Assembly: GCF_964204645.1 (NCBI RefSeq)
Contig: NC_134036.1
Span: 1,488,001-1,552,000 of the forward strand
Direction of reading: 5' to 3'
From: Tubulanus polymorphus
Lineage: Eukaryota > Nemertea > Palaeonemertea > Tubulaniformes > Tubulanidae
Length of the DNA: 64,000 nt
Positions within the stretch are counted from its first letter, which is position 1. Each line of letters begins with the position of its first letter. Below are positions 33,140 to 63,420 of the stretch, piece after piece. A program made the position numbers and the translations under genes. Under the pieces are notes generated by a model. It had not been told where the DNA came from and searched no databases. It saw only the letters and a program-made list of their open reading frames with translations.

Positions 33140-34737
33140 AAGTCATTTTCTAATCATTGTTTAGGCTTTGAATCTATGAATTTAGTTATTATCTTCAATT
33201 AGACTCATTGTTTAAGCTTTGGATCTATGAAATTAGTGATTGTCTTCAATTAAACTCATTGTTTAGGCTTTGGATCTATGAAATTAGTTATTATCTTCAA
33301 TTAAACTCATTGTTTAGGCTTTGGATCTATGAATTTAGTTATTATCTTCAATTAAACCCATTGTTGAGGTTTGGAACCTTTGAAATAAGTTATTGTCTTT
33401 AATCAAACTCATTGTTTAGGCTTTGAATCTATGAATTTAGTTATTATCTTCAATTAAACTCATTGTTTAGGCTTTGAATCTATGAATTTAGTTATTATCT
33501 TCAATTAAACTCATTGTTGAGGTTTGGAACCTTTGAAATTAGTTATTGTCTTTAATCAAACTCATTGTTTAGGCTTTGGATCTATGAAATTAGTTATTGT
33601 CTACAATTAAACTCATTGTTTAGGCTTTGGATCTATGAAATTAGTGATTGTCTTCAATTAAACCCATTGTTGAGGTTTGGAACCTTTGAAATTAGTTATT
33701 GTCTTTAATCAAACTCATTGTTTAGGCTTTGGATCTATGAAATTAGTTATTGTCTACAATTAAACACATTGTTTAGGTTTGGAACCTTTAAAATTAGTTA
33801 TTGTCTTTAATCAAACTCATTGTTTAGGCTTTAGCTCTTTGAAATTAGTTATTGTCTGCAATCAGACTCATTGTTTGGGCTTTGAATCTTTGAAATTAGT
33901 TATTGTCTTCAATCAGACTCATTGTTTAGGCTTTGAATCTTTGAAATTAATTATTGTCTTCAATTAGACTCATTGTTTAGGCTTTGAATCTTTGAAATTA
34001 GTTATTGTCTTCAATCAGACTCATTGTTTAGGCTTTGAATCTTTGAAATTAGTTATTGTCTTCAATCAGACTCATTGTTTAGGCTTTGAATCTTTGAAAT
34101 TTTTTATTATCTTCAATTAAACTCATTGTTTGGGCTTTGGCTCTTTGAAATAAGTTATTGTCTTCAATCAGACTCATTGTTAAGGCTTTGAATATTTGAA
34201 ATTAATTATTGTCTTCAATTAGACTAGGCTTTGAATCTTTGAAATTAGTTATTGTCTTCAATCAGACTCATTGTTTAGGGTTTGAATCTTTGAAATTAAT
34301 TATTGTCTTCAATGAGACTCATTTTTTAGGCTTTGAATCTTTGATATTAGCTATTGTCTTCAATCAGACTCATTGTTTAGGCTTTGAATCTTTGAAATTA
34401 GTTATTTTCTTCAATTAAACTCATTGTTTAGGCTTTGAATCTTTGAAATTAGTTATTTTCTTCAATTAAACCCATTGTTTAGGCTTTTAATCTTTGAAAT
34501 TTGTTATTATCTTCAATTAAACTCATTGTTTGGGCTTTGGCTCTTTGAAATTAGTTATTGTCTTCAATCAGACACATTGTTTAGGCTTTGGCTCTTTGAA
34601 ATTAGTTATTGTCTTCAATCAGACACATTGTTTAGGCTTTGAATCTTTGAAATTAGTTATTGTCTTCAATCAGACTCATTGTTTAGGCTTTGAATCTTTG
34701 AAATTAGTTATTGTCTTCAATTAAACTCATTGAACGT
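33140..34737 (+). repeat. 51-bp satellite, left array, about 31 copies
   Basis: The unit reads CTCATTGTTTAGGCTTTGAA, TCTTTGAAATTAGTTATTGT and CTTCAATTAGA. It sits directly downstream of the donor of exon 2, that is, inside the putative second intron. 51 is divisible by three, so short frames are open by chance. Confidence 0.95.
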
Positions 34738-41889: not shown

Positions 41890-44800
41890 AGCAACAATTA
41901 ATTTCAAAGATTCAAAGCCTAAAGAAAGGGTCTAATTGAAGACAATAACTAATTTCATAGATTCAAAGCCTAAACAATGAGTTTGATTGGAAACAATAAC
42001 TAGTTTCATAGATTAAAATCGTAAACAATGAGTGAGACTGAAAATAATAACTAATTTCATAGATTCAACGCCTAAACAATGAGTTTAATTCGAAACAATA
42101 ACTAATTTCATAGATTCAAAGCCTAAACAATGAGTCTAATTGAAAACAATAACTTATTTCATAGATTCAAAGCCTAAACAATGAGTCTAATTGAAGACAA
42201 TAACTTTTTTCATAGATTCAAAGCCTAAACAAAGAGTCTAATTGGAAACAATAACTAATTTCATAGATTCAAAGCCCAAACAATGAGTTTAATTCGAAAC
42301 AATAACTAATTTCATAGATTCAAAGCCCAAACAATGAGTTTAATTCGAAACAATAACTAATTTCATAGATTCAATGCCTAAACAATGAGTGTAACTGAAG
42401 ATAATAACTAATTTCATAGATTCAAAGCCTAAACAATGAGTTTGATTGGAAACAATAACTAGTTTCATAGATTAAAATCCAAAAAAATGAGTGTAACTGA
42501 AGATAATAACTAATTTCATAGATTCAACGCCAAAATAATGAGTTTAATTGAAGACAATAACTAATTTCATGCGTTCAAAGCCTAAACAATGAGTCTTATT
42601 GCAGACAATAACTTATTTCATAGATTCAAAGCCTAAACAATAAGTTTAATTCGAAACAATAACTAATTTCATAGATTCAAAGCCTAACAATGAGTCTAAT
42701 TGAAGACAATAACTAATTTCAAAGATTAAAAGCCTAAACAATGAGTCTAATTGGAAACAATAACTAATTTCATAGATTCAACGCCTAAACAATGAGTTTA
42801 ATTCGAAACAATAACTAATTTCATAGATTCAAAGCCTAAACAATGAGTCTAAGTGAAGACAATAACTTATTTCATAGATTCAAAGCCTAAACAATGAGTT
42901 TGATTGGAAACAATAACTAGTTTCATAGATTAAAATCCTAAACAATGAGTGAGACTGAAAATAATAACTAATTTCATAGATTCAACGCCTAAACAATGAG
43001 TTTAATTCGAAACAATAACTAATTTCATAGATTCAAAGCCTAAACAATGAGTCTAATTGAAAACAATAACTTATTTCATAGATTCAAAGCCTAAACAAAG
43101 AGTCTAATTGGAAACAATAACTAATTTCATAGATTCAAAGCCCAAACAATGAGTTTAATTCGAAACAATAACTAATTTCATAGATTCAAAGCCCAAACAA
43201 TGAGTTTAATTCGAAACAATAACTAATTTCATAGATTCAATGCCTAAACAATGAGTGTAACTGAAGATAATAACTAATTTCATAGATTCAAAGCCTAAAC
43301 AATGAGTTTGATTGGAAACAATAACTAGTTTCATAGATTAAAATCCTAAACAATGAGTGTAACTGAAGATAATAACTAATTTTATAGATTCAACGCCAAA
43401 ATAATGAGTTTAATTGAAGACAATAACTAATTTCATGCGTTCAAAGCCTAAACAATGAGTCTTATTGAAGACAATAACTTATTTCATAGATTCAAAGCCT
43501 AAACAATGAGTCTAATTGGAAAAAATAACTAATTTCATAGATTCAAAGCCTAAACAATGAGTCTAATTGGAAACAATAACTAATTTCATAGATTCAAAGC
43601 CCAAACAATGAGTTTAATTGAAGACAATAACTTATTTCATAGATTCATAGCCTAAACAATGAGTTTAATTGAAGACAATAACTTATTTCATAGATTCAAA
43701 GCCTAAACAATGAGTTTAATTCGTAACAATAACTAATTTCATAGATTCAAAGCCGAAACAATGAGTCTAATTGAAGACAATAACTAATTTCATAGATCCA
43801 AAGCCTAAACAATGAGTCTAATTGAAGACAATAACTAATTTCATAGATTCAAAGCCTAAACAATGAGTCTAATTGAAGACAATAACTTATTTCATAGATT
43901 CAAAGCCTAAACAATGAGTCTAATTGGAAACAATAAGTAATTTCATAGATTCAAAGCCCAAACAATGAGTTTAATTCGAAACAATAACTAATTTCATAGA
44001 TTCAAAGCCTAAACAATGAGTCTAATTGAAGACAATAACTTATTTCATAGATTCAAAGCCTAAACAATGAGTTTAATTCGAAACAATAACTAATTTCATA
44101 GATTCAATGCCTAAACAATGAGTCTAATTGAAGACAATAACTTATTTCATCGATTCAAAGCCTAAACAATGAGTCTAATTGGAAACAATAACTAATTTCA
44201 TAGATTCAAAGCCCAAACAATGAGTTTAATTCGAAACAATAACTAATTTCATAGATTCAATGCCTAAACAATGAGTGTAACTGAAGATAATAACTAATTT
44301 CATAGATTCAAAGCCTAAACAATGAGTCTAATTGAAGACAATAACTTATTTCATAGATTCAAAGCCTAAACAATGAGTCTAATTGAAGACAATAACTTAT
44401 TTCATAGATTCAAAGCCTAAACAATGAGTTTAATTCGAAACAATAACTAATTTCATAGATTCAAAGCCTAAACAATGAGTCTAATTGAAGACAATAACTT
44501 ATTTCATAGATTCAAAGCCTAAACAATGAGTTTAATTGGAAACAATAACTGATTTCATAGATTCAAAGCCCAAACAATGAGTTTAATTCGAAACAATAAC
44601 TAATTTCAAAGATTAAAAGCCTAAACAATGAGTCTAATTGAAGACAATAACTTATTTCATAGATTCAAAGCCTAAACAATGAGTCTAATTGAAGATAATA
44701 ACTAACTTCATAGATTCAAAGCCTAAACAATGAGTCTAATTGAAGACAATAACTTATTTCATAGATTCAAAGCCTAAACAATGAGTTTAATCGAAGACAA

Positions 44801-47800
44801 TAACTTATTTCATAGATTCAAAGCCTAAACAATGAGTCTAATTGGAAACAATAACTAATTTCATAGATTCAACGCCTAAACAATGAGTTTAATTCGAAAC
44901 AATAACTAATTTCATAGATTCAAAGCCTAAACAATGAGTCTAAGTGAAGACAATAACTAATTTCATAGATTCAAAGTCTAAGCAATGAGTCTAATTGAAG
45001 ACAATAACTTTTTTCATAGATTCAAAGCCTAAACAATGAGTTTAATCGAAGACAATAACTTATTTCATAGATTCAAAGCCTAAACAATGAGTCTAATTGG
45101 AAACAATAACTAATTTCATAGATTCAACGCCTAAACAATGAGTTTAATTCGAAACAATAACTAATTTCATAGATTCAAAGCCTAAACAATGAGTCTAAGT
45201 GAAGACAATAACTTATTTCATAGATTCAAAGCCTAAACAATGAGTTTGATTGGAAACAATAACTAGTTTCATAGATTAAAATCCTAAACAATGAGTGAGA
45301 CTGAAAATAATAACTAATTTCATAGATTCAACGCCTAAACAATGAGTTTAATTCGAAACAATAACTAATTTCATAGATTCAAAGCCTAAACAATGAGTCT
45401 AATTGAAAACAATAACTTATTTCATAGATTCAAAGCCTAAACAAAGAGTCTAATTGGAAACAATAACTAATTTCATAGATTCAAAGCCCAAACAATGAGT
45501 TTAATTCGAAACAATAACTAATTTCATAGATTCAAAGCCCAAACAATGAGTTTAATTCGAAACAATAACTAATTTCATAGATTCAATGCCTAAACAATGA
45601 GTGTAACTGAAGATAATAACTAATTTCATAGATTCAAAGCCTAAACAATGAGTTTGATTGGAAACAATAATTAGTTTCATAGATTAAAATCCTAAACAAT
45701 GAGTGTAACTGAAGATAATAACTAATTTCATAGATTCAACGCCAAAATAATGAGTTTAATTGAAGACAATAACTAATTTCATGCGTTCAAAGCCTAAACA
45801 ATGAGTCTTATTGAAGACAATAACTTATTTCATAGATTCAAAGCCTAAACAATGAGTCTAATTGGAAACAATAACTAATTTCATAGATTCAAAGCCTAAA
45901 CAATGAGTCTAATTGGAAACAATAACTAATTTCATAGATTCAAAGCCCAAACAATGAGTTTAATTGAAGACAATAACTTATTTCATAGATTCATAGCCTA
46001 AACAATGAGTTTAATTGAAGACAATAACTTATTTCATAGATTCAAAGCCTAAACAATGAGTTTAATTCGAAACAATAACTAATTTCATAGATTCAAAGCC
46101 TAAACAATGAGTCTAATTGAAGACAATAACTAATTTCATAGATCCAAAGCCTAAACAATGAGTCTAATTGAAGACAATAACTAATTTCATAGATTCAAAG
46201 CCTAAACAATGAGTTTAATTCAAAACAATAACTAATTTCATAGATTCATAGCCTAAACAATGAGTTTAATTGAAGACAATAACTTATTTCATAGATTCAA
46301 AGCCTAAACAATGAGTTTAATTCGAAACAATAACTAATTTCATAGATTCAAAGCCGAAACAATGAGTCTAATTGAAGACAATAACTAATTTCATAGATCC
46401 AAAGCCTAAACAATGAGTCTAATTGAAGACAATAACTAATTTCATAGATTCAAAGCCTAAACAATGAGTCTAATTGAAGACAATAACTTATTTCATAGAT
46501 TCAAAGCCTAAACAATGAGTCTAATTGAAGACAATAACTTATTCAATAGATTCAAAGCCTAAACAATGAGTCTAATTGAAGACAATAACTTATTTCATAG
46601 ATTCAAAGCCTAAACAATGAGTTTAATTCGAAACAATAACTAATTTCATAGATTCAAAGCCTAAACAATGAGTCTAATTGAAGACAATAACTTATTTCAT
46701 AGATTCAAAGCCTAAACAATGAGTTTAATTGGAAACAATAACTGATTTCATAGATTCAAAGCCCAAACAATCAGTTTAATTCGAAACAATAACTAATTTC
46801 AAAGTTTAAAAGCCTAAACAATGAGTCTAATTGAAGACAATAACTTATTTCATAGATTCAAAGCCTAAACAATGAGTCTAATTGAAGATAATAACTAATT
46901 TCATAGATTCAAAGCCTAAACAATGAGTCTAATTGAAGACAATAACTTATTTCATAGATTCAAAGTCTAAGCAATGAGTCTAATTGAAGACAATAACTTA
47001 TTTCATAGATTCAAAGCCTAAACAATGAGTTTAATCGAAGACAATAACTTATTTCATAGATTCAAAGCCTAAACAATGAGTTTAATTCGAAACAATAACT
47101 AATTTCATAGAATCAATGCCTAAACAATGAGTTTAATTGAAGACAATTACTTATTTCATAGATTCAAAGCCTAAACAATGAGTTTAATTGGAAACAATAA
47201 CTAATTTCATAGATTCAATGCCTAAACAATGAGTCTAATTGAAGACAATAACTTATTTCATAGATTCAAAGCCTAAACAATGAGTTTAATTGGAAACAAT
47301 AACTAATTTTATAGATTCAAAGCCTAAACAATGAGTCTAATTGAAGACAATAACTTATTTCATAGATTCAAAGCCTAAACAATGAGTCTAATTGAAGACA
47401 ATAACTTATTTCATAGATTCAAAGCCCAAACAATGAGTTTAATTCGAAACAATAACTAATTTTATAGATTCAAAGCCTAAACAATGAGTCTAATTGAAGA
47501 CAATAACTTATTTCATAGATTCAAAGCCTAAACAATGAGTCTAAATGATGACAATAACTAATTTCATAGAGTTAAAGCCCAAACAATGAGTCTAATTGAA
47601 AACAATAACTAATTTGATAGATTCAAAGCTTGAACAATGAGTTTAATTGAAGACAATAACTCATTTCATAGATTCCAAGCCTAAACGATGAGTCTGATTG
47701 AAGACATAACCAATCATAAAGATTTAAAGCCTGAACAATGAGTTTAATTGAAACAATAACTCATTCATAGACTCCAAGCCTAAACAAAGAGTCTGATTGA

Positions 47801-47930
47801 AGACAATAACTCATTGCATAGATTCAAAGCCTAAACAATGAATTTAATTGAAGACAAAAACTAATTTCAGAGATTCAAAGCCTAAACAATGAGTTTAATT
47901 GGAAACATTAACTAATTTCATAGAACCTAT
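41890..47930 (-). repeat. 51-bp satellite, right array, about 118 copies with higher-order structure
   Basis: On the plus strand units read CAAAGCCTAAACAATGAGTC, TAATTGAAGACAATAACTTA and TTTCATAGATT. Diagnostic variants recur at fixed distances. AGTCTAAG at 42,846 and 45,192, ATGCGTTCAAAG at 43,435 and 45,781, and AGATTCATAG at 43,641 and 45,987 are all 2,346 bases apart, exactly 46 units. The GTTTGATTGG variant recurs after 917 bases (41,981 and 42,898), about 18 units. Confidence 0.95.
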
Positions 47931-49856: not shown

Positions 49857-50138
49857 TTTGGAGGCACCAAACACAATCATCAGGAGGCACCAAACACAAT
49901 TATCAGGAGGTACCAAATACAATCTTCAGCAGGCACCAAACACAATCATCAGGAGGCACCAAATACAATCATCAGGAGGCACCAAACACAATCATCAGGA
50001 GGCATCAAACACAATCATCAGGAGGCACCAAACGCGATCCTGGGGAGGCACAAAACACAATCCTCAGGAGGCACCAATCACAATCATCAGGAGGCACCAA
50101 ACATACTCCTCAGGAGGTACCAAACACAATCCTCAAGA
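49857..50138 (+). repeat. 23-bp minisatellite, about 12 copies
   Basis: The unit is AGGAGGCACCAAACACAATC plus ATC. Two overlapping frames of nearly 100 codons are by-products. Confidence 0.9.
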
Positions 50139-51160
50139 ACCTCATGACGTTCAATGAAACTACTTCTACGTTCTATAATTGCTATCGTGCAGGTTTTCAT
50201 ATAACTACACGTGCTATATTTACTGGACTAATCCCTCGGTTTGGGTCGGGTTGATGAGATGCAGCAGAACTCGGGTAGAAATACATCCAGAATGATTGAT
50301 GTAGAATTGTGTTAGAGGAGTTTCATCCAGGAAGATCAAGGTTAGAACAAAATCAACCAAAAGAAATAAAACAAAAACTGAAATAATTCTTATGCATTTA
50401 ATTAAGCGATTACTATTACTCTATAAAATGAATCTAAACATTTCAAATAAAACGAAACAAAACAATTTTAATAAAGATTATTTCAATCAATTGATTATTG
50501 TAATTAAGAAAATTAAAAAAGAAAAAAGATTATAATTTAGACAAAATGAAAGACATATGAAATAAAGCGCTGGTAACAATAATGTATGTAAATCTATTGA
50601 AATCTGAGCCTATGCAAAACTGAATTTAAAAAAAATTGAAATAAGAAAGTCAAACATGTCAAAATTAGTTACATTTACGCAATAAAATTGAATTGATTGC
50701 ATTCGAATCATAATTTTAAACAAATCAAATAAACGACAATGTAATCTTTAAAGCAAACTCAACTGGGCCTGAGTTACTTTTGATAACTGAAAAAGAAAAT
50801 ACTCGTTCGATAGAATGATATTCGCTGCCGTGCACGTAAGCATCTAATGTGAAGCTCGAATCGGAACAGAATCTAAAGCAATCAATATTTAGCACTATGG
50901 ATGATTGGAAATTCATAAATTTTTTAAGCATGAAAACAAATTGATTAAATATTTCTAGAATGAAATTCTTTGCCGTGTACGTAATAAGTATCTAATATGA
51001 AACTCGAATCAGACAGATTCTAAAGCTATCAATATTTACTTCTAAGATGAAAAACAATCTTCCAAAATATAAATCCGATCATTAATTTAATCATTCGTTT
51101 AACACTAAGCCTAAAAAGCAAAATATGTTTCAAATTCCGGTAGGGGGCGTGTGAGTCGAA
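50139..51160. repeat. Duplicated intergenic DNA of the Ly6-like cluster
   Basis: 50,165-50,400 matches 54,545-54,775 (AATTGCTATCGTGCAGGTTT, GGACTAATCCCTCGGTTTGG). 50,735-51,160 matches 59,430-59,880 (TTTGATAACTGAAAAAGAAA, TTTGCCGTGTACGTAA). The gene copies were therefore duplicated together with their downstream DNA. Confidence 0.75.
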
Positions 51161-51239
51161 TTAACAGAATCGATTATTTAAACAAAATGAAATAAGAGAA
51201 AAGCAGAGAACCGCGGAGTAAATCATTGTATTCATCCTT
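51161..51239 (-). pseudogene. Relic of a Ly6-like terminal exon (C-terminal tail only)
   Basis: The minus strand encodes RMNTMIYSAVLCFSLISF and ends at a TAA at 51,163-51,161, matching the hydrophobic tail of genes A-C. Upstream of it (higher coordinates) the CC...CN part is missing and the sequence changes, so only the tail survives. It lies just downstream of the stop of gene A. Confidence 0.7.
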
Positions 51240-51465
51240 AAGTAAAGAAATCAATTTTAGTCCTAAAATGAGAAAAAAATCTTCTAAAAAATATAAATCA
51301 GATCATTAATTCAATCATATTAGTCTTAAGATGAAAAAACACGAATCATCTAAAATCCGCATTTGGTTTGAAATATTAATTAAATCATTCGTTTAAAGTG
51401 AGATGAAATTCAGATATATGAGATATAATCTCCGGTAGGTGGCGTGCGAGTCGAATTTAAAAGAA

Positions 51466-53657
51466 TCATCCAAAACGGAATAACAGAAAAACCGCGGAGT
51501 AAATCATCAGGTTCATCCTGTAGGTGGCAGCACTGTTGCACATTTTGTCTTCGTTACAGCACAGCACATTGATCCTGTCTTTGCCATTTATCGACCACTC
51601 GCCTTGACATTTATCAGGATTCTCGGGCATACAACCTCGAATAACCGCCACTTTTTTGTACTTGAATTCCTGAATAAGAACGAAAAAATACAAATTAGCC
51701 AAAACCAATGAATGTCAGCTATATGTTTTCATCTAAAAGCATGGATGATTTTTCCAGTTGGGATATGGAGTATTCTGAAAACACACAGTCTCACATGCCA
51801 CAGGCGGTGTCGTCGAGAAAACTTAATTCAGTATGATCGTACCTGAGGTCGAGGAAATAATGAAAACGGTTTGCGATGGAGATTTAAAATACGTCCCGAT
51901 ATCCTTCCCAGGACAGAGGGAGAGGGAGAGCCAGGAGAGGGAGAGCAAGGAGAGGGAGAGGGAGAGCCAGGAGAGGGAGAGGGAGAGGGAGAGGGAGAGG
52001 GAGAGGGAGGAGAGGGAGAGTTAGGAGAGGGAGAGGGAGAGCCAGGAGAGGGAGAGGGAGAGGGAGAGGGAGAGGGAGAGGGAGAGGGAGAGGGAGAGGG
52101 AGAGGGAGAGGGAGAGTTAGAGAGAGAGCCCCTTGTGTTTGGTCCTACACTTACCACGCATTCGTGTTTTTCGGGGCAATCGATACCGATAATGTTTTCC
52201 AGGTAGAACTGATAATCTTCATCAACGCGTACCAATGGTCCATTGTCACCCTTGATAACCAATACACGGCGCATGCATTCCTTGGTGAAATAAGGCAGTT
52301 TACCAGTTCCGTTTGCGGTATTCGGATCAAGCATTCCAACTGAAGTTAAGTGAAATAAAGTTGTTAGACCCGTGCAGGGGGACTAGTAGGGGACTCGTGC
52401 TGGGGAGTAGGAGGGGGCTTATGCTGGGGACTAGTGATGGTTGAGTCTCGTGATGGTCGTGTTCTGTAAGGGAGTATGACCACTGGATGCGGTCTCGTGG
52501 CAATGGCGTGGTCCCGCGTGATAGTTCGGATCTCGTGGAGGTGGCACTAGGGGGCGTTCTCTGACACAGGATCCCTGCCAACACGCGATCATTATTATAA
52601 CTAGAGTAGGGTTGCGTGTGAATTTCAAAGCTATAAATCCAACCATCGATGTGGAATGAAAAGAGGTTCTTCTTCTTTATCTATGACATCGCCAACGCCG
52701 CTGCGTCACGATGTGATGTACAAGGCACCTCCAATTATTACGGTCTACAGTAAATTCCTCCAGGAAAGTTAACGTTTCGCTTGGTGATGTGAATCAATAA
52801 CTGATAACATTAAACAGGCCTCATCCTTGGCCTTGAATTGCGATTTACTTAATACAAATTCAACTTACGTTTATCGGCAAAGTTTTTCATATCATCATAG
52901 ATAGCCTTATCACCATAGTGCGCACAACTGGCACAAGTCAAACTCGTAACGACTGTGACTAAAAATAAGATTCCAAGGTATCAGAATTGATGATAGCTGA
53001 TCCCTTTCTAAATTAGTAAGTCATCGAATCGTTGCAGTTGTCGCTTTTTGTGAGTCACAATTTTAATTTACAATTCAATTTCAAGTCGTCATTTCAATAA
53101 ATCGTTTAAGGCTGGCTGTCGACAAGCAACGCGACGCCTTCCGACTCCTTCCGACGCAACTGAGAGCAACCGCGATCGCAGCCCAGCTTATGTCGACTGC
53201 GCTCCGATTCGCAGCAACTGAGGTCCTCGATCCTCCTAGTTGCTTCCCTGCTTAATGTCGGTTACGATTACTGACAACTGCAACGGCTCAGATGGTCACG
53301 TGATAAGCATTTTGAGGATAAATTTACATGAACCTGTCCCGGCAAAGTTTTTCAGATCATCATAGATAGCCTTATCTCCGCCATGGCAAGCACACATGGC
53401 ACAAATCAGTTTATCAGGACGAGCTGCAGTGCCTGAAGAGACAGCCACACTGCCAGGACTGGGTGGACATTTCAATAAATCGTTAACGTCCTCGCTATGA
53501 TGACTTGAACGAAGTCAACTGTATGTATTGATTACACAAATCATAAATAGAAGCTTTGATAAAACTTTTTTGAGAACTTTTTATAAAATAGAAACTTACC
53601 CTGAACTAACAGAACCAGCAGAACTGTTGTAACAGAAATAAACTGTATCAGTTTCAT
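51466..53657 (-). CDS. Gene A: Ly6/uPAR-like GPI-anchored protein, four coding exons
   Basis: Exons on the minus strand are 53,657-53,600 (signal peptide [19 protein letters not shown]), 52,958-52,869, 52,339-52,155 and 51,669-51,466. All have AG acceptors and GTAAGT donors, and phases 1, 1, 0 join to 177 residues. Ten cysteines are seen: LTCASC at the start, one in KEC, IDC and HEC in the central exon, then RGC, DKC, LCC and MCN at the end. The CC-x5-CN ending followed by NSAAT and a hydrophobic tail is the hallmark of Ly6/uPAR (three-finger) domains with a GPI-anchor signal. The first half is longer than in typical family members. A second possible exon 2 is at 53,334-53,432. The product probably sits on the outer plasma membrane; its ligand is unknown. 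Confidence 0.75.
51905..52117 (+). repeat. (GGGAGA)n hexamer array in intron 3 of gene A
   Basis: Nearly pure GGGAGA units with occasional GCCAGGA interruptions. On the gene strand this is TCTCCC, beginning about 40 bases after the donor. It keeps the frame open as Ser-Pro repeats if intron 3 is retained. Confidence 0.9.
53105..53295. other. GC-rich insertion between the two exon-2 versions of gene A
   Basis: A compositionally distinct block with GTCGACAAGCAACGCGACG and CAGCTTATGTCGACTGCG partly inverted to each other. It is absent from the corresponding introns of B and C, so it may be a short DNA element. Confidence 0.35.
53334..53432 (-). CDS. Alternative or duplicated exon 2 of gene A (2b)
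   Basis: Acceptor CTCTTCAG, 99 bases with phases 1-1, encoding [20 protein letters not shown] and then a stretch like exon 2a and like exon 2 of gene C ([10 protein letters not shown]). It has the same length and phase as exon 2 of gene C and keeps the CxxC motif. Its donor is GTTCAT instead of GTAAGT, so splicing may be weak or lost. Inclusion of 2a, 2b or both would keep the frame (90 and 99 bases). Confidence 0.6.
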
Positions 53658-53745
53658 TCTGTCGTCTTTTGAAGTTTCAGCAATTCCACTGACGATTGGT
53701 TGGGTAATCTTTGTAGCGACTGTTACCACGAGAGTTTGAACCACA

Positions 53746-53775
53746 AACTGATCAGTCGGACTGGAGATTTATATA
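53746..53775 (-). promoter_or_regulatory. Core promoter of gene A (TATA plus initiator)
   Basis: The minus strand has TATATAAATC (53,775-53,766) and a TCAGTT initiator (53,751-53,746), with the TATA starting about 26 bases before the initiator A. The same pair is conserved at genes B and C. Confidence 0.7.
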
Positions 53776-55283
53776 TTTTGACTGAAGATACCGTTTAGGC
53801 TTCTAAAGAATTTATCAGGACACTGGCGGTAACGGCTTCACGAGATAAAGAATTCATTTACATTTGTTAAATCAGTATGATCAGCCGGTCCAGTTACTGT
53901 TTGGGCTTCCGAAGAATTCGTGTTTTATCTGAATCGGTACAGGTTTGTCATGAAATGATTCATTTATTTGTATCCAAAACAATAAAGGTTATGGTTACTT
54001 TCCTTATATTTTTTCCAGTCTCGTAGGCGTTGAAAAAAAGAAAACTTTCGATTCGAAATAATTCAAATTAACGGACAAAAATTGAAATTCTCAGAGCGAT
54101 GACGCTACAATTGTTGTGAGTTAACGGTAACGGTTTGTCGAGATAAAGAATTTCATTAATAACAGCAAGACGTATATTGGAGATTGACGAAAAGTTGTTT
54201 TTTTTAAACTGATAGAAACGCTGAAATTAACGGACATTTTTTTATCATAAGTTGGATAACAGATTTGACGGAGTTCAAAATGATTGCCGAGGTGGGAAAA
54301 ATATTTTTCGAAAATAATTTTTTTCCTCAAAACATAGTAATTCAGTGAACGAGGAATTCAAAAGATAAATGAACAACTTGTCTTGGAGGTTGTTTCGGGA
54401 TAGTTATATCCGAATGTAGTCTATTTACTGCTTACAGTCAACTGACGCCGCCATTTTTGCAAGTGACGCTATTTACCGAACGAAACCGACAAATAAATCA
54501 TCCTGATAGTCCATGCTCATTTCGATCAAAAAAGTTATGCTGTTTTACTTCTACAATTGCTATCGTGCAGGTTTTCATATAACTACACGTGCTATATTTA
54601 CTGGACTAATCCCTCGGTTTGGGTCGGGTTGATGAGATGCAGCACTCGGGTAGAAATACATCGAGAATGGAGAATTTTGTTGGAGAAGTTTCATCCAGGA
54701 AGGTCAAGGTTAGAACAAAATCAACAAAAAGAAATAAAAGAAAAACTGAAATAATTCTCGTGCATTTAAGCGATTACTTTTACTTTATCGCGTAAAAATG
54801 AATTTAAAAATTTCAAATAAAACGAAACAAAACATAAAATTTGAATAGAAATATTAATTAATTGATAAATATAATTGAGAAAATTACAAGATTATGATTT
54901 GTACATTGAAAAATGAAACGAAATTCTTGAAATATTAAATATGAATTAAAATCGATTAATATGAATTATTTAGATAAAAAAAATCGCTAATCAAGATAAA
55001 TTCGACATAGAATGAAAGTGATATGAAATAAAGCGCTGGTAACAATAGTGTGTGTAAATCTATTGAAATCTGAGCATATGCAAAACTGAATGGCACAAAA
55101 ACTGAAATGAGAAAGTCAAACATGTCGATTTTGTCAGAATTTTCAACAAGTGAAATAAACGACAATGTTATCTATAGCAAACTCGGGTTGAGTTACTTTT
55201 GATAACCTAAAACTAAGCCTAAAAAGCAAAATATATGTTTCAATTTCCGGTAGGCGGCGTGCGAGTCGAATTTACAGAATCGA
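53776..55283. repeat. Intergenic DNA between genes A and B (duplicated blocks)
   Basis: 53,800-54,010 resembles 57,250-57,470 (ACACTGGCGGTAACGGCTTC). 54,170-54,310 resembles 58,140-58,265. 54,425-54,500 resembles 58,260-58,320 (GCCATTTTTGCAAGTGACGC). 54,545-54,775 resembles 50,165-50,400. No further gene is seen. Confidence 0.7.
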
Positions 55284-55802
55284 TTATATAAACAAAATGA
55301 AATAACAGAAAAACAGAGAAACCGCGGAGTAAATCATCATATTCATCGTAAAGGTGGCAGCACTGTTACACATGTTGAAATCTTCACAGCAGAGCACCTT
55401 GACCTTCTTGTCACCGACCAGCCACTCCTCTTGGCATTTACCAGGATTCTGAGGCATACAACCTTTGATAACCAGACTTTTTTTGTACATGAATTCCTGA
55501 AAATTGAAAACAAACCAAATCTGTAAAAAAAACATAGTTATAATAGCGATGTGAGTTATGAATCTTTAAGTGCATTTTCTCTCATGATTCTGTTGAGGAC
55601 CACATGGGCCACATGGGCAAAACGCAGTGAGACTTGGTCCAAACCATTTGACAATGCTGGAAGTCACCATTTTGATAGGATAACATTTTTCGGTATGGCC
55701 GTTTTTTATCATTAATTTTCTCATATATCTATGAGGCTTATTTCGACATATTTCACCGGTCCATGGAATTCTGCTTGATTCTTGGAGATTTGTCTCATCT
55801 CG

Positions 55803-55985
55803 GACACTCCTCTCAGGAGAGAGGCCTTCACCCTAGATACCCCTCTCAGGAGAGAGGCCTCCACCCCGACACGCCTCTCAGGAGAGGGGCCTCACTCCGG
55901 ATACCCCTCTCAGGAGAGGGGCTCCAACCGGGACACACTTTTCCTGGAGAGGGGCCTCACCCCGGAATCCCTTCCCTGGCGAGAC
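55803..55985 (+). repeat. About 32-bp minisatellite in intron 3 of gene B
   Basis: Five copies carry the palindromic core CCTCTCAGGAGAG(A/G)GGCCT followed by CACCC-type sequence. The gene-strand frame stays open through it from exon 3. Confidence 0.8.
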
Positions 55986-56239
55986 ACGACCCTCCCAGAC
56001 GGAACCGTAATGCTCTACACTTACCACGCATTCATGTTTTTTGGGGCAATCGATCCCGATTATGTTATCCATAAAGAACTGGTACCTATCATTGTTAAGT
56101 TCCATGGAGTCAGACTTTCGATCATCATCGTCCCATATAGTGCGCGTGCATTCCTTGGTGAAATATGGCTGTTTACCAGTTCCGTTTGCGGTTTTCGGAT
56201 CAAGCATTCCAACTGAGGTAAAAATAAATAAATTGGTTA

Positions 56240-56420
56240 GACTCGTACTAGGGAGTATAAAGGGACTAGTAGGGGACTCGTGATGAGTAGTATAAAGGGA
56301 CCAGTAGGGGACTCGTGATGAGTAGTATAAAGGGACTAGTAGGGGACTCGTGATGAGTAGTATAAAGGAACTAGTAGGGGACTCGTGCTTGGGACTAGTA
56401 GGAGACTCGTGATAGGAGTA
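56240..56420 (+). repeat. About 44-bp repeat in intron 2 of gene B
   Basis: AGTATAAAGGGACTAGTAGG and GGACTCGTGATG repeat about four times. A related GGACTAGTAGGGGACTCGTG piece occurs in intron 2 of gene A near 52,380. Confidence 0.75.
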
Positions 56421-57062
56421 TGACCTCTGGGCACGGTTCTGCGGCAGTGTCCCGCGTGATGGTTCTAATCCCCGTAAGGCTGTGGGGCAGGGGATCTTCA
56501 CTGACACAGGATCTTTGCTATCACGCGCGATCCTAACTAAGTGCGGGATTTCCTATAAAAACTAATCCCATTATCGACATGGAATAAGAAGATGTTGAAT
56601 TTCTCGCTGCTGACCGACACAATGAATAAATAATCAAAATATAGTAAAAACAACTTACGTCCATTTGCAAATGTGTCCATAAGATCATAGAATGCCTCAT
56701 ATTTTCTGTCACTAAATCTGTCAGTAAATACAAGCGGCACAGGTGAGATTAGCAGGACGACCTGCAGTGCCTGAAAATTAGATTACAACGTTGTATCAGA
56801 ATTGAGGGAATGTGATTTTCCTGATCGAAACCTCTTAGGGTTAATTAAATTACGAACAATTGCTTCGATAAAATGTTTTGTAAGGGACTGCAAAATATGT
56901 AAAATACAAACTTACCCTGAGCTAACAGAACCAACAGAACTGCTGTAACCGTAATAAACTGTATCAGTTCCATCCTGTCGTCTTTTGAAGTTTCAGCAAT
57001 TCCACTGCTTTGATAGCTTTGATAAAACCTTTTTGAGAACTGTTTATAAAATACAAACTTAC

Positions 57063-57120
57063 CCTGAGCTAACAGAACCAACAGAACTGCTGTAACCATA
57101 ATAAACTGTATCAGTTCCAC
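57063..57120 (-). pseudogene. Promoter-proximal duplicate of exon 1 of gene B, start codon lost
   Basis: A 58-base copy of exon 1 including the GTAAGT donor lies between the TATA box and the working exon 1. Its first codon is GTG where the other copies have ATG. Transcripts from the TATA box at 57,221 would pass through this copy before the ATG at 56,973. Confidence 0.7.
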
Positions 57121-57200
57121 CCCCTCGTCTTCCTAAGTTCAGTGACAAAACCGTTTAGATGATCTCTGTAGCGACTGTTACCACAAGAGTTTGAACCACA

Positions 57201-57230
57201 AACTGATCAGTCGGATTGGAGATTTATATA
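57201..57230 (-). promoter_or_regulatory. Core promoter of gene B
   Basis: TATATAAATC (57,230-57,221) and TCAGTT (57,206-57,201) on the minus strand, spaced as at genes A and C. Confidence 0.7.
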
Positions 57231-59874
57231 GTTAGACCGAGGATACCGTTTAGGCTGCTAACGAATTTATCAGGACACTGGCGGTAACGGCTTCACGAGA
57301 TAAAGAATTCATTTACATTTGTTAAATCAATAGATCAGCTGGTCCAGTTACTGTTTTGGCTTCCGAAGAATTCGTGTTCTATCTGAACCGGTACAGGTTT
57401 GTCATGAAATAATTCATTTATTTATATCCAAAACAATAAACGTTATGGTTACTTGCCTTAGATTTTTCCAGTCTCGAAAGCGATGCTAAAAGAAAACGTT
57501 CGATTCAAAATTCAAATTAACGGTAACAGTTTGTCGAGATAAAGAATTCATTTATATAATTTATATATTTTACAGATATTTAAAAGGAAGCTTCGTATAC
57601 TAAAGATATCTTGACATTAGTGACACAAAAATAGTTAACCTAATGTTTAAGTTTAGATGCGACAGTCACAATCTTAGGATTGAAACAGGTAGATGGAAAC
57701 GCCGAGAGAAAACCGCACTTGTACAACTTGCTCCACTGACGAAATTGAGGACTAACATCACGTTCTCACGTCCTGCCCCTCATACAACTCGCTTCGAAGT
57801 AATCTCGTTATTTTAGAACGCATCCTAGCATGGCAAAATTCATTCAACTTCTAACTACTAATTCGATATGAAAACTTAGAGATATGCTTAAGAGATATTT
57901 AAAGAGATATGTTGGAAGATATTTGATTTCAATGCTCAGAAGACGGAGAACGCTTCGAGGCGACGAAACCGAGTAAATACAGCTACCCAATCAACTTGAT
58001 ATTTCCGTTTTTTTTCAACATGTAATTTTGTATTAAATTATTTTGTTGAAATTTGTAATTTTGATTATCCGTCATACAAGTGTACACACTTTGATGAAGA
58101 ATAAACTATATTAAATATAAAAAGACGTGAAATTCCGTTATTGGAGATTGACAAAAAAGTTGCTTTTTCAACTGATGAAAACGTTGTAATAAACGGACAT
58201 TTTTTATCATAAGTTGGATAACAGATTTGATGGAGTTTGAAATGATTGCCGAGGTGGGAAAGATAGTTCCCACCGCCATTTTTGCAAGTGACGCTATTTT
58301 CTGAACGGAACCGACAAATATATCCAGTAGAACAGCCATTGGCCACCGCAAGTTTTTGTTAGTGAAGTCGCAGTGGAAAATATGCTTTAATCACCATGTA
58401 TCTGAACTTAAAAATAAGAGGGCGGCGGGATTATTGATGGAGAATTTCGGGTAGGGGTTCATCCAGGAAGGTCAAGGTTTGAACAAAATCAACTAAAAGG
58501 AATTAAACAAAAACAGGAAATAATTTTCGTGCATTTAATTAAGCAATAACTTTTACTCTATCGCGTGAAAATGGATTTAAACGCTTTATTCATAACGAAA
58601 CACTTCAAAACAAAAAATCTGAACTAAAAATTGATTAATTTGAATGAAAAATATTAATCTGAATCAATAGAATTGAGACGATTACAAGATTGAGGAATAA
58701 ACACATTCAAAATGAAACTCAAATCTTCAAAACTTTAATATTTGTTTTAGAAATTTAATTATTTGAATCTCTTAACACAAAATAAATCAATAATCAAGAT
58801 ATAATTTTACATTGAAATGAAAGAGATATGAAATAAAGAGCTTATAACAATAATGTGTGTTCATCTATTGATATCTGAGCATATGCAAAACTGAATTAAA
58901 CAAAAATCGAAATGAGCAAGTCAAACATGTTTGAATGTGTTGAAATATCTATGTAAAATCCCAAAGAATGAATCATAATTTTCTTTTAACGAGTTTGAAT
59001 ATATAAAACATTAACAGACTCTAATTAATTGAATTAGAATCAGAATTTTAACGCATACAGAATAAACGACAATTGATCTATCGCAAACACATTGCGAGCT
59101 GATTCACTTTTGATATTTGTAAACAGATTTAAAATGTTGTACTTGTACTTCAACAAACAGATTGTCAGAACAAATTCAAAAATTAAGACAATTACAAGAT
59201 TAACACTACGTGCAATATTAAATATAGAGAGATATTAAATAAAATGCCTGCAACAATAATGTGTGTAAATCGATTGATATCTGAACAAATGCAAAACTGA
59301 ATTAAACAAAAATCAAACATGTCAACATAAATTAAATTTGCGAAACAAAATCATATTTGATTGAATTCGAATCGGAATTTTTACCCTATGAAATAAACGA
59401 AAATGTAATCTGTAACAAACCCAACTCGGGCTGAGTTACTTTTGATAACTGAAAAAGAAAATACTCAACAGATTTGAACCGTCAGTCAGAACGAATTCGT
59501 TCGATATTTCTAGAATGGCATTCTTTGCCGTGTACGTAAGAATCTAATGTGAAACTCGAATCAGAACAGAATCTAAAGCAATCAATATTTAGCACTATGG
59601 ATGATTATAAATTCGTAAATTTCTAAGCATGAAAACAAATTGATTAAATATTTCTAGAATGACATTCTTTGCCGTGTATATAATAAGTATATAATATGAA
59701 ACTCGAATCGGAACAGAATCTAAAGCAATAAATATTTACTTCTAAGATTAAAAAAATCTTCCAAAATATAAATCCGATCATTAATTTAATCATTCGTTTT
59801 ACACTAAGCCTAAAAAGCGAAATATATGTTTCAATTTCCGGTAGGGGGCGTGCGAGTCGAATTTACAGAATCAA
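57231..59874. repeat. Intergenic DNA between genes B and C (duplicated blocks)
   Basis: Parts match the A-B interval and the region below gene A. 59,430-59,640 and 59,640-59,790 are two tandem versions of the same downstream block (GAATG(G/A)CATTCTTTGCCGT). 57,590-58,080 has no match in the window. No gene is seen. Confidence 0.65.
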
Positions 59875-61625
59875 TTATGTAAACAAAATGAAATAACAGA
59901 AAAACAGAGAAACCGCGGAGTAAATCATCATATTCATCCTAAAGGTGGCAGCACTGTTGCACATGTTGATTTCGTCACAGCAGAGCACCTTGAAGTCCCT
60001 GCCATTGATCTCCACAGTAGATTGACATTTACCAGATAGCTCGGGCATACAACCTCGAATGACCGCATCATTTCTGTACTGGATTTCCTGAAAATAGTAA
60101 AGAAAACTTACAAATTAGCTTAAAGCCTCAGCCCGGACCCCCCTCCCAGTAGAGATGCGAATTGTACACCTTTCAGTGATGTTTTTCATACGATTATTTG
60201 TGGAGGGTCACGTGAGAATTTTATGCAAAACAAGTTGAAAGTTGCAAGACGCCATTTTGTTCGGCTCATTTTACCCGGTATCGTCGTATTTTCCAATTCC
60301 ATTTTCCAGAGGCTGATTTTATCATATTATATATATTATGCTCATTCGATCATGGATATCTTAAATCCGTTCTCCTAGAAGAGAGAGGCCTCATCCCGGG
60401 AAACCCCAGGAGATTGGTTTCACCGCAACACTCTTCCCAGGAGGGGATTTTCCATCCCGGAAACCCCAGGGCCTGGTTTCATAGACTGAGTATCAAAGTT
60501 ATCCCCAGGGGTAAATCCTCAATCTGGGTGACAACCACCATGGTTACAATGAGAAACCATGGTAATAACTGACAAATTTCAAAATGTTCCCAGGGACTAT
60601 TTTTCTTCCACATCTATGAAACCCAGCCCAGGAGATTGGTTTCACCGCAACACTCTTCCCAGGAGGGGATTTCCCATCCCGAGCACCCCAGGAGATTGGT
60701 ATCACCGCAACACCCTCCCCAGGAGAGAGGTCTCACTACAGACACCCCCTCCAGGGTCAGAAATAGACCCTCCGCGGAGTTGCTATGTATTGTCCTATAC
60801 TCACCATGCATTCGTGGTTTACGGGGCAATCGATACCGGTTATGTTATTCAAGAAGAACTGATACTCTTTTTCAACGCGTTCCAGATCGTCTTGATCTTT
60901 AGGGTCATTCCACATATTTCGCATGCATTCCTTTGTGTTATAAGGCGTTTTAGCAGTCGTCCAGTCAATAACATCCTGATCAAGCATTCCAACTGTAACA
61001 AGAAAACCGACTTGAAAGTTTATTGACGCCTTGATAAACTAACATACATATACCGCTTAATATCGTCGACAATAAATGTCATAATATAATGAAATGATAT
61101 TAAGGATCGACAAATTTAATGTGGATTTGAATTACACATTAGTTCAGTGAGACAAGGCGCGATGCTGTATCATCCACTAACAGCGCTGAGTGTGACAAGT
61201 GGGTTCGAGTCCTGCTGGCTACCTACAGCGCGCGGGCAGCACTTTCAAAGGTCGAGGTCCCGTCGTATCAGGCGCGGATCCAGAGGGGGGTTTCAGGGGT
61301 CGTCACCCCCCCCCCCCTGCTCAGCTACCAAAAAAAATTTTGTAATCATTTTCTTGAAGGAATGTACGCATGTCCTCTGAGACAAAGCGAACAGTATCAC
61401 ATAATCGATACCATATCATCTTATGTTTGGCCAAACAATATGCCGTAGGCCCCCCCCTATCAGAGATTTTTAGTCGGCGGATTTACATTAACATTTTGTT
61501 TGGCCAAACAATATGCCGTAGGCCCCCCCTATCAGAGATTTTTAGTCGGCGGTTTAACATTAACATTTTGTTTGGCCAAACAATATGCCGTATAATAATA
61601 ATGATAAAAATAATAATAATAATAA

Positions 61626-61656
<31 letters not shown>

Positions 61657-62382
61657 AATAATAGGCATTTAAAGAACGCACTACATTACGCATCTCAGTG
61701 CGATTTACAATAAGAAAAGGGAGTAAAAAAACAAGTAAAAATGCAAAAAAAATGTTCTTTATGTTTTATGTTTAGATTTAAAATCAATGTTATTACAGTA
61801 ATTCCGAAGATTAAGAGTCGTATTATTGTCGACAGTTAAGGTGAACGGGGCGCGGGGTTTCCGCTGACACAGGAACCTTGTTATAGTCTCACGATCTTTA
61901 TACTTCTATTTTAACTAAAAAAGGGTTTCGTATTAATTTCATAGAAACCTAGAAACAACTTACGTTCATTGGCAAAGTCTCTCATATCATCATAGATAGC
62001 CTTATCTCCATCATAGTAAATACAAATGGCACAAATCAGTTTATCGGGACGCACTGCATTGCCTGAAAATTAGATTACAACCTATCACAGAATTGAAGAT
62101 GATTGATCCCTGTTAAAATTAGTAAGTCATCGAATTGTTGCAGTTGTCACAATTTTTGAGTCACAAATTTGTAAGTCGTCATTTTAATAAGTCGTTTCAA
62201 CTCGATCCCGGCCTCGCTATGAGACTTGACCGAATTCGAATTTATATATGTAATAAACAAATGATAAATAGCTTTGATAGCTTTGATAAAGTTTTTGAGA
62301 ACTATTTATAAAATACAAACTTACCCTGAGCTACCAAAACCAACAGAACTGCTGTAACCGTAATAAACTGTATCAGTTCCAT
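59875..62382 (-). CDS. Gene C: intact Ly6/uPAR-like GPI-anchored protein
   Basis: Exons on the minus strand are 62,382-62,325 (signal peptide MELIQFITVTAVLLVLVAQ), 62,062-61,964, 60,992-60,805 and 60,087-59,875. Donors are GTAAGT or GTGAGT and acceptors are AG after pyrimidines. Phases 1, 1, 0 give 185 residues. Cysteines: KLICAIC, KEC, IDC, HEC, RGC, GKC, LCC, MCN, ten in all, then NSAATF and a 20-residue hydrophobic tail. The terminal exon is only 70 codons, so it is easy to miss. The central exon is acidic and lysine-rich and differs most from A and B, whereas the terminal exon is well conserved. Predicted extracellular GPI-linked protein of unknown ligand. Confidence 0.78.
60360..60780 (+). 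repeat. Minisatellite in intron 3 of gene C
   Basis: CCCAGGAGATTGGTTTCACC, GCAACACTCTTCCCAGGAGG and GGATTT(T/C)CCATCCCG repeat with indels. CCATGGTT and AACCATGG at about 60,538-60,561 form a small palindrome. Confidence 0.75.
61165..61268 (+). mobile_element. tRNA-derived SINE, family 1 (copy 3), in intron 2 of gene C
   Basis: The B box GGTTCGAGTCC (61,202-61,212) is followed by TGCTGGCTACCTACAGCGCG and CAAAGGTCGAGGTCCCGTCG. Confidence 0.7.
61269..61592 (+). repeat. GC-rich element end and 77-bp tandem repeat in intron 2 of gene C
   Basis: GGCGCGGATCCAGAGGGGGG and a run of 11 C look like the end of a DNA element. From 61,420 a unit with TTGTTTGGCCAAACAATATG, CCGTAGGCCCCCCC and ATCAGAGATTTTTAGTCGGC repeats about 2.5 times. 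Confidence 0.7.
61593..61664 (+). repeat. (TAA)n microsatellite
   Basis: About 20 ATA/TAA triplets with few interruptions, in intron 2 of gene C. Confidence 0.9.
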
Positions 62383-62462
62383 CCTGTCGTCTTCCTAAGT
62401 CCAGTGACGAAACCGTTTAGATGATCTCTGTAGCGACTGTTACCACAAGAGTTCGAACCACA

Positions 62463-62492
62463 AACTGATCAGTCGGATTGGAGATTTATATA
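62463..62492 (-). promoter_or_regulatory. Core promoter of gene C
   Basis: TATATAAATC (62,492-62,483) and TCAGTT (62,468-62,463) on the minus strand, followed by a leader of about 84 bases to the ATG at 62,382. Confidence 0.7.
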
Positions 62493-62519
62493 GTTAGACC
62501 GAGGATACCGTTTAGGCTG

Positions 62520-63420
62520 ATGAAGAATTCGTATTATATTATCTGGATATTGGTGGTAACGGCTTCGCGAGATAAAGAATTCATTTATGCATCTGATTAT
62601 TACAAATAAAATGAATTAATCAAGAACACAATAAACTTTATGATAATTTTCGATATATTTCTCAACTTTCATCACACGAATTGAGTGATATTACATAGTT
62701 TGGAGATTGGTAACGGTTTTAACGAGATTATGACTTAAATTTATATCCATTATTACAATTAAAATGAATTAATGGAAAATTCAATTCTAGTCTAGATAAC
62801 TTTTATTATATTTTCAATTTTCTTTGTTGCATTCTGTTTGTAGGATAAAAGGCGTTGCTAACGGAAAAAAAACCCAAATTAACGGACAAAAATTAAAATT
62901 TTCAGAGCGAAGGAGCTGTAATTGTTGAGAGTCAACGGTTACAATTCGTCGAGTTAAAGAATTCATTTTTATAAGCAACAAGACTTAAAATCCTATGAAT
63001 CGACATTGAATCGACATTGCCTGAGTGTAGGGGGCGTATGTTATAGAGATATATTGTGAAATATTGGAATTCGTTTTAAATCTGTTTGTGTCGGCGGCAC
63101 TAGTCGTTTTCTCAATCCGGTGCTTGTCCATCGCGGGTTGTGCGAATATAAAAAAAAAACAAATTTAGCCAAAACCCAGCTATAGCGATGTGAGTTATGA
63201 ATCTGTAAGTGCATTTGCTGTCATGATTCTGTTGAAGACCACATGGGCCACATGGACACCACGCAGTGAGACTTGGTCCAAAACTATTTGACAATAGTCT
63301 ATGCTGCTCACTGATAATTGACGCCGCCATTTTTGCAAGTGACACTATTTACATCGGTTAGAACACCCATTGTCTACCACGAGATTTTCTTTTTTTTTTG
63401 ATGTTGCAGTGGAAAAAAAT
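62520..63420 (-). pseudogene. Upstream DNA of gene C and relics of a further Ly6-like copy
   Basis: 63,175-63,300 closely matches intron 3 of gene B at 55,545-55,670 (ATGTGAGTTATGAATCT, CCACATGGGCCACATGG, GTGAGACTTGGTCCAAA) but has no terminal exon beside it. 63,320-63,420 matches the intergenic block at 58,265-58,395. 62,520-62,710 matches the relic at 49,640-49,860. Confidence 0.6.

Follow-up and report, generated by a model that had tools for sequence, protein, structure and literature searches.

What kind of protein is encoded by three related gene copies that lie in tandem in the Tubulanus polymorphus genome, and do these copies stand alone or belong to a larger family? The copies, here named A, B and C, are found at 51466-62382 on the minus strand of a stretch of 64,000 nucleotides (C12:1488001-1552000; hereafter the window), each with four coding exons, and were compared with the whole genome of this nemertean (267.8 Mb, 77 contigs). 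An original prediction, made from the letters of the window, had described them as a cluster of three Ly6/uPAR (LU)-like genes with a long N-terminal half, ten cysteines and a glycosylphosphatidylinositol (GPI)-type tail. Here, we argue that they probably represent a new, rapidly diversifying variant of the GPI-anchored LU surface proteins, a reading for which gene layout, cysteine order, family size, rearranged clusters and an excess of amino-acid change were computed directly.

Copy C (59875-62382) is intact and yields a product of 185 residues, and copy A (51466-53657) is intact with an exon termed 2a (178 residues); both have the intron phases 1,1,0 that had been predicted for all three copies, and introns in intact models are of the GT-AG type. 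Two candidates exist for the second exon of copy A: 2a has the donor gtaagt and gives ten cysteines, whereas 2b, which is also open (181 residues), has the donor gttcat and gives eleven. Use of 2b as the main second exon was rejected in view of its poor donor and odd cysteine number. A GGAGAG-rich array is located within the last intron of copy A (51915-52128). In copy B (55284-56973), exons 1, 3 and 4 are open and the frame of exon 2 is lost past cysteines 1-2, leaving no ten-cysteine product in this assembly; skipping of exon 2, which keeps the frame and loses cysteines 1-2, was rejected as a route to a functioning product. Judged by its sequence, copy B, which also has a second exon-1 copy with no ATG, is probably dead. 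Assembly of the three spliced products succeeded for C and A only, and, with copy B broken in this assembly, 'three genes' is an overstatement. The exon-1 peptide of copy B is 95% identical to that of C and 80% to that of A, and the expected contrast between a variable central and a conserved terminal exon was borne out: identity to copy C is 49% (B) and 52% (A) in exon 3 against 64% (B) and 62% (A) in exon 4. All three copies are preceded by the TATA-box element TATATAAATCTCC, with TATA starting 110-118 bases upstream of the exon-1 start (counted, for copy B, from the start of its ATG-less exon-1 copy).

The tandem trio is real, and a cluster of three is too small a frame for it. In protein searches of the genome (E, the expectation value, up to 1), relatives of exon 4 were found at 15 places and relatives of exon 3 at 11, and a query of the type found on contig C9 detected exon 4 at at least 22 places on six contigs (E up to 0.1; C12 8, C9 5, C4 4, C2 3, C1 1 and C61 1), all of these counts being lower bounds. 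Ten intact models could be built, namely C, A, A', B', D and E on C12, G and H on C9, and one each on C4 and C61. Since one four-exon, ten-cysteine layout recurs in ten intact models on four contigs, chance is very unlikely, and chance open reading frames were rejected in view of the conserved splice sites of these models. The other copies are incomplete or damaged: no exon 1 was found for copy F and no exon-4 acceptor was located for copy I, the exon-4-like piece of J does not stay in one frame, exon 2 of K1 contains an in-frame stop, K2 is a lone exon 4, and C2b, C1 and C' have stops or frame breaks. The primed copies belong to a sister cluster (C12:1984743-1999522), which is inverted, has the order C', B', A' and lies ~0.43 Mb from the window cluster. 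The TATA-box element also precedes A' and C', and was not found before B', D, E, G, H, I or the C4 or C61 copies.

The products share the cysteine framework of LU domains and differ from it in one region. In the consensus given in PMC6600238, an LU domain has 60-90 residues, ten cysteines and an invariant Asn, and PMC3058042 gives a length of ~100 residues. All ten intact models have ten cysteines in LU order (A and A' taken with 2a; with 2b, eleven), followed directly by Asn after the tenth, and the motif CC-x5-CN is present in products of the family; the predicted ten cysteines are thus found in the domain of C and in A with 2a, and not in B, and C has an eleventh located in the hydrophobic tail. 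An N-terminal LxCxxC motif was read from the sequences of eight of the ten models, the C4 and C61 copies having MRCYDC without the Leu. The gaps between successive cysteines are 2,41,32,5,13,7,14,0,5 in copy C and 2,6,5,6,12,5,17,0,4 in CD59, as worked out from the disulfide positions in PMC4839075, and only the second and third differ strongly; the extra length is therefore confined to the segment from cysteine 2 to cysteine 4. On C12, the six intact copies have 39-44 residues separating cysteines 2 and 3 and 27-39 separating cysteines 3 and 4, with normal spacing from cysteine 4 to 10. In every one of the ten intact copies, the loop between cysteines 2 and 3 (finger 1) is 27-38 residues longer than that of CD59, and in eight of them the stretch between cysteines 3 and 4 is longer by 22-34 residues. 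Because the C4 and C61 copies have a long first loop (41 residues) and a short following stretch (10), the extension of loop 1 is the common feature and that of the second segment the variable one. From first to last cysteine, the span is 126-138 residues in the C12 and C9 copies and 106 in the C4 and C61 copies; with 129 residues in C and 128 in A (exon 2a), the predicted distance of well over 100 was confirmed; the expansion of a Ly6-like subfamily whose N-terminal half is long is supported by this span and by the 22 exon-4 matches. After the CN, the products continue with SAA (or SAV, SAP or SAS) and 19-23 further residues, with none or one charged among the last 16. By hydropathy, the only measure applied to the tail, this C-terminal sequence is compatible with a GPI signal, having small residues, a hydrophobic end and no cytoplasmic tail.

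Further evidence of ancestry comes from intron positions and from profile searches with exon 4. The last intron of the family is in phase 0, one residue past cysteine 5, which is the same position as the inner intron of a canonical short LU gene on C10 (L001, C10:5503041-5503169; spliced by eye), whose product matches UPAR_LY6 above the cut-off (E 3e-7). The three-exon plan of LU genes has a signal exon with a phase-1 donor and a single intron within the domain, in loop 2; the family agrees with this plan in the signal exon and the last intron and departs from it by a further phase-1 intron in loop 1. An exon-4 profile was built from 12 members, namely C, B, A, C', D, E, F, G, H, I, K1 and K2, with A', B', J, the C1, C4 and C61 copies and that at C2:19.65 Mb omitted. 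Among 177,635 PDB sequences, it matched, at E up to 10, only the ectodomains of BMPR1B and BMPR1A (E 0.65 and 0.77), both alignments falling on the same cysteines. Taken singly, the 12 exon-4 sequences had as top Pfam matches ET (0.019), UPAR_LY6 (0.03) and Activin_recp (0.044), ranked ahead of four unrelated families (0.09-0.3). Together, the cysteine order, the common intron position and the weak BMP-receptor and UPAR_LY6 matches make LU ancestry of the family very probable.

The copies appear to be under diversifying selection, mostly in exon 3. Site models were fitted to six C12 paralogues, with G, H and the C4 and C61 copies excluded for their high divergence, and F, I, J, K1, K2, C2b, C1, B, C' and three further C4 copies mostly because they are incomplete or broken. 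For the whole protein, twice the log-likelihood difference (2dlnL), obtained with our own codon-model code, unchecked against a standard program, was 29.8 for M1a versus M2a (p 3e-7), 32.5 for M7 versus M8 and 29.9 for M8a versus M8; a second topology and the mature part gave similar results, and the maximum in 80 null simulations was 6.3. Masking of columns within 3 or 5 of a gap lowered the M1a versus M2a value to 22.8 (p 1e-5) and 14.6 (p 7e-4). By exon, the value was 16.9 for exon 3 (10.9 masked) and 7.5 for exon 2, against 4.5-6.9 for exon 4, in agreement with the claim that the central exon had diversified most. The fit favours a site class with omega 6-8 over omega = 1, and the sites identified (C numbering) include 58, 78, 83, 87 and 88 in exon 3, of which 83-88 are close to indels, and 138, 140 and 141 in finger 3. 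Pairwise omega for the mature part is 0.56-0.90 in 14 of 15 pairs (A/A', 1.22 on six changes) and 0.11-0.51 for the tail (12 of 15 pairs computable); that of the signal exon is noisy (0.08-2.42), its nonsynonymous divergence (dN 0.02-0.19) being lower than that of the mature part (0.29-0.45; A/A' excluded). In the G/H pair on C9, 39 of 476 coding positions differ against 30 of 874 intron positions (Fisher p 2.5e-4), and 31 of the 33 aligned changed codons are replacements and 2 are silent. In G, residues 106-116 (L033/L034 exon 4), adjoining the last intron, correspond to eleven consecutive codons replaced relative to a similar copy.

Comparison of the two clusters suggests that sequence has been exchanged between copies. 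They have six blocks of 94-97% identity in common, in rearranged order. A' has the same double exon 2 as A, and between the two there are no differences in exon 2b (0/99), none in exon 2a (0/90) apart from a 6-base gap, and 10 in 894 positions of two introns. Between B and B', 26 of 102 positions differ in exon 2 and 5 of 188 in exon 3, and the exon 2 tree conflicts with the exon 4 tree (bootstrap 92 and 95); the simplest account of these differences is gene conversion or unequal exchange. A 23-base tandem repeat stands beside both clusters (49860-50135 and C12:1999797-2000133, ~85% alike) and is possibly linked to the inverted duplication.

Several results weigh against a diversifying LU family. 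The domains span 106-138 residues rather than 60-90 (or ~100), even though the cysteines and the Asn agree. No Pfam family reached its cut-off with C (mature part), A, D, E or G, the best UPAR_LY6 (PF00021) score being 12.8 bits for protein D, and 10.1 for E, against a cut-off of 24.8, with C (mature), A and G unlisted; the full-length products of the window gave no result in Pfam and NCBIfam scans, and no LU protein was among the PDB matches of a full-length profile, which were PRDM9 (E 0.012), an ATPase, a zinc finger and a photosystem subunit and are read as chance. The signal in exon 4 is weak (2dlnL 4.5, 6.9 masked, 5.9 for the ectodomain part; p 0.03-0.11), the silent-versus-replacement rate test for G/H alone gives p 0.07, and exon and intron divergence in A/A' do not differ significantly (p 0.33). 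Gene conversion may also inflate a test on six paralogues of one genome whose exon trees conflict. Because the length and profile tests fail, we file the family as an LU variant rather than an ordinary member. Convergence of an unrelated ten-cysteine domain on the CxxC...CCx5CN pattern would account for the length and for the Pfam scores below the cut-offs, yet we consider it improbable, as the spacing of cysteines 4-10, the Asn after the tenth, the phase and place of the intron and the two PDB matches of the exon-4 profile all fit LU. Equally improbable is that the sister cluster is an unremoved haplotype and the family smaller than it appears. The 94-97% identity of the six blocks would suit a haplotype, but the blocks are rearranged and inverted, B and B' differ far more in exon 2 than in exon 3, and similarity, repeats aside, ends at the cluster edges: against sister flanks of ~1.7 and 3.5 kb only, the window below 50500 has 31 matches, the eight longest all in the tandem repeat region 49859-50433, and the window above 62900 has two, of 113-114 bases. 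The status of the sister cluster in any case has no bearing on D, E or the copies found on other contigs.

High amino-acid change could also arise in a decaying cluster, through relaxed constraint after duplication and the formation of pseudogenes. The broken copies B and C', the stops and frame breaks of C2b, C1 and K1, the split in J and the mature-part pairwise omega below 1 in 14 of 15 pairs are in line with decay, which is nonetheless an unlikely explanation of the family as a whole: ten models keep their ten cysteines and tails, tail omega is low (the signal exon being too short for judgement), the site models favour omega 6-8 over omega = 1 for a class of sites, and neutral drift does not produce coding change faster than that of introns, as seen in G/H. 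Somewhat less unlikely, but still not favoured, is that the products are ordinary lynx-like neuromodulators, GPI-anchored LU proteins which tune Cys-loop (nicotinic-type) receptors and which expanded alongside a large receptor family. LU action on nicotinic receptors is described in mammals and proposed in starfish (PMC11595613), and receptor partners for such a role exist, given 111 Neur_chan_LBD matches genome-wide (E up to 1e-5; counted per exon, not per gene). Clusters of Cys-loop receptor ligand-binding exons were seen at C5:1.32-1.40 Mb and C7:17.12-17.16 Mb. Receptor partners tend to be conserved, and omega above 1 and exons outpacing introns are not predicted by a lynx-like role; to our knowledge, the long loop also has no counterpart in known lynx proteins.

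How the family relates to known systems is best seen by comparison. GPI-anchored single-domain LU proteins (CD59, lynx and the starfish Lystars) have the same cysteine order and the Asn after cysteine 10 according to PMC6600238 and PMC4839075. LU single-domain proteins also have the same phase-1 signal exon, a GPI-type tail in the last exon and an arrangement in gene clusters, whereas loop 1 and the segment between cysteines 3 and 4 are 5-8 times longer in the C12 and C9 copies than in CD59, and the extra loop-1 intron gives four coding exons instead of three; Pfam scores also stay below the cut-off. The activin/BMP receptor ectodomains align with the exon-4 profile on the GC...CC...CN cysteines (E 0.65-0.77), and in contrast to BMP receptors the family is without a kinase and ends in a short hydrophobic stretch. 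The nematode ODR-2/HOT family (PF06579) is long, GPI-linked and Ly6-related. In Pfam scans of C (mature), A, D, E and G it was unlisted up to E 10, a weak negative, as HMMER filters discard most matches above ~0.1. Bouncer and SPACA4 have loops of ordinary length, unlike the window family. Both, Bouncer being from fish, are single-domain three-finger proteins in gamete recognition, and salamander PMF proteins are alike to the family in loop-length change and positive selection (both PMC8830517). Snake three-finger toxins are likewise multi-copy, with exon segments that evolve faster than introns, and the replaced run in G resembles their exon segment switching, as a resemblance only (PMC2474615). 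Because the GPI-type tail is retained, a surface protein is expected rather than a secreted one, unlike the toxins and PMF proteins. Among the open-access titles and openings of abstracts listed (subscription papers and supplements being outside this scope), no LU family with so long a first finger was found, which is weak evidence of novelty.

In the proposed model of a diversifying LU variant, for which fold, disulfide pairing, GPI attachment and an action of selection on binding are what we infer, an ordinary LU core (cysteines 4-10) would have been retained and loop 1 lengthened, with an added phase-1 intron inside it. The signal peptide and C-terminal signal would put the protein on the outer leaflet, where a disulfide core (expected pairs 1-5, 2-3, 4-6, 7-8 and 9-10) would hold the loops, and the long exon-2/exon-3 loop plus finger 3 would form the contact surface. 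Copies may have been multiplied by tandem and inverted duplication and mixed by gene conversion or unequal exchange, and positive selection would diversify them, so that a cell shows a changing set of binding surfaces to a changing partner, which could be a microbe, another gamete or a variable self ligand. A more specific proposal, which we regard as possible but tentative, is a dedicated, fast-diversifying surface-recognition system of an invertebrate, based on a remodelled three-finger domain, with exon 3 carrying the variable contact loop and with gene conversion, duplicated second exons and inverted clusters as sources of new combinations; its logic would be comparable to that of other expanded recognition families.

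Table 1. Features of the gene cluster, in window positions
Feature	Position	Strand	Remarks
Copy C TATA-box element TATATAAATCTCC	62480..62492	-	
Copy C exon 1	62325..62382	-	signal peptide, phase 1 donor
Copy C exon 2	61964..62062	-	cysteines 1-2 (LICAIC), start of long loop
Copy C exon 3	60805..60992	-	remainder of long loop 1, cysteines 3-5; variable exon
Copy C exon 4	59875..60087	-	cysteines 6-10, CC-x5-CN, GPI-type tail, stop
Copy B TATA-box element	57218..57230	-	
Copy B extra exon-1 copy, without ATG	57063..57120	-	
Copy B exon 1, with ATG	56916..56973	-	
Copy B exon 2, frame broken after cysteines 1-2	56659..56770	-	likely pseudogene or assembly error
Copy B exon 3, open	56025..56212	-	
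Copy B exon 4, open	55284..55496	-	
Copy A TATA-box element	53763..53775	-	
Copy A exon 1, signal peptide	53600..53657	-	
Copy A exon 2b, alternative or relict	53334..53432	-	donor gttcat, extra cysteine
Copy A exon 2a, likely used second exon (LTCASC)	52869..52958	-	
Copy A exon 3, cysteines 3-5	52155..52339	-	
Copy A exon 4	51466..51669	-	cysteines 6-10, short GPI-type tail, stop
Exon-4 tail relict (RMNTMIYSAV / SLLFSYFILF)	51180..51241	-	downstream of copy A; similar piece in sister cluster
Extent of the six 94-97% identity blocks common to both clusters, rearranged order	50811..62863	.	

Several tandem arrays lie elsewhere in the window. A 24-base array (14184-15827, 68.5 copies) has long open frames on both strands (IQLLRFGC-type and KPKKLNAA-type), which are probably not genes. 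A 51-base satellite forms arrays at 41892-47924 (118 copies) and 33154-34732 (31 copies), with units that by eye are similar and in opposite orientation, and two 43-base arrays (24826-25045 and 25833-26092), whose units are reverse complements by eye, flank a 50-base array.

If the fold is confirmed, the family would mean that the three-finger scaffold tolerates a first finger several-fold longer than usual, and that many copies within a single genome have retained this length. With its cysteines and tail conserved and its loops changing fast, the family offers concrete positions for binding tests, and it would be a candidate recognition system in an animal possibly without antibodies.

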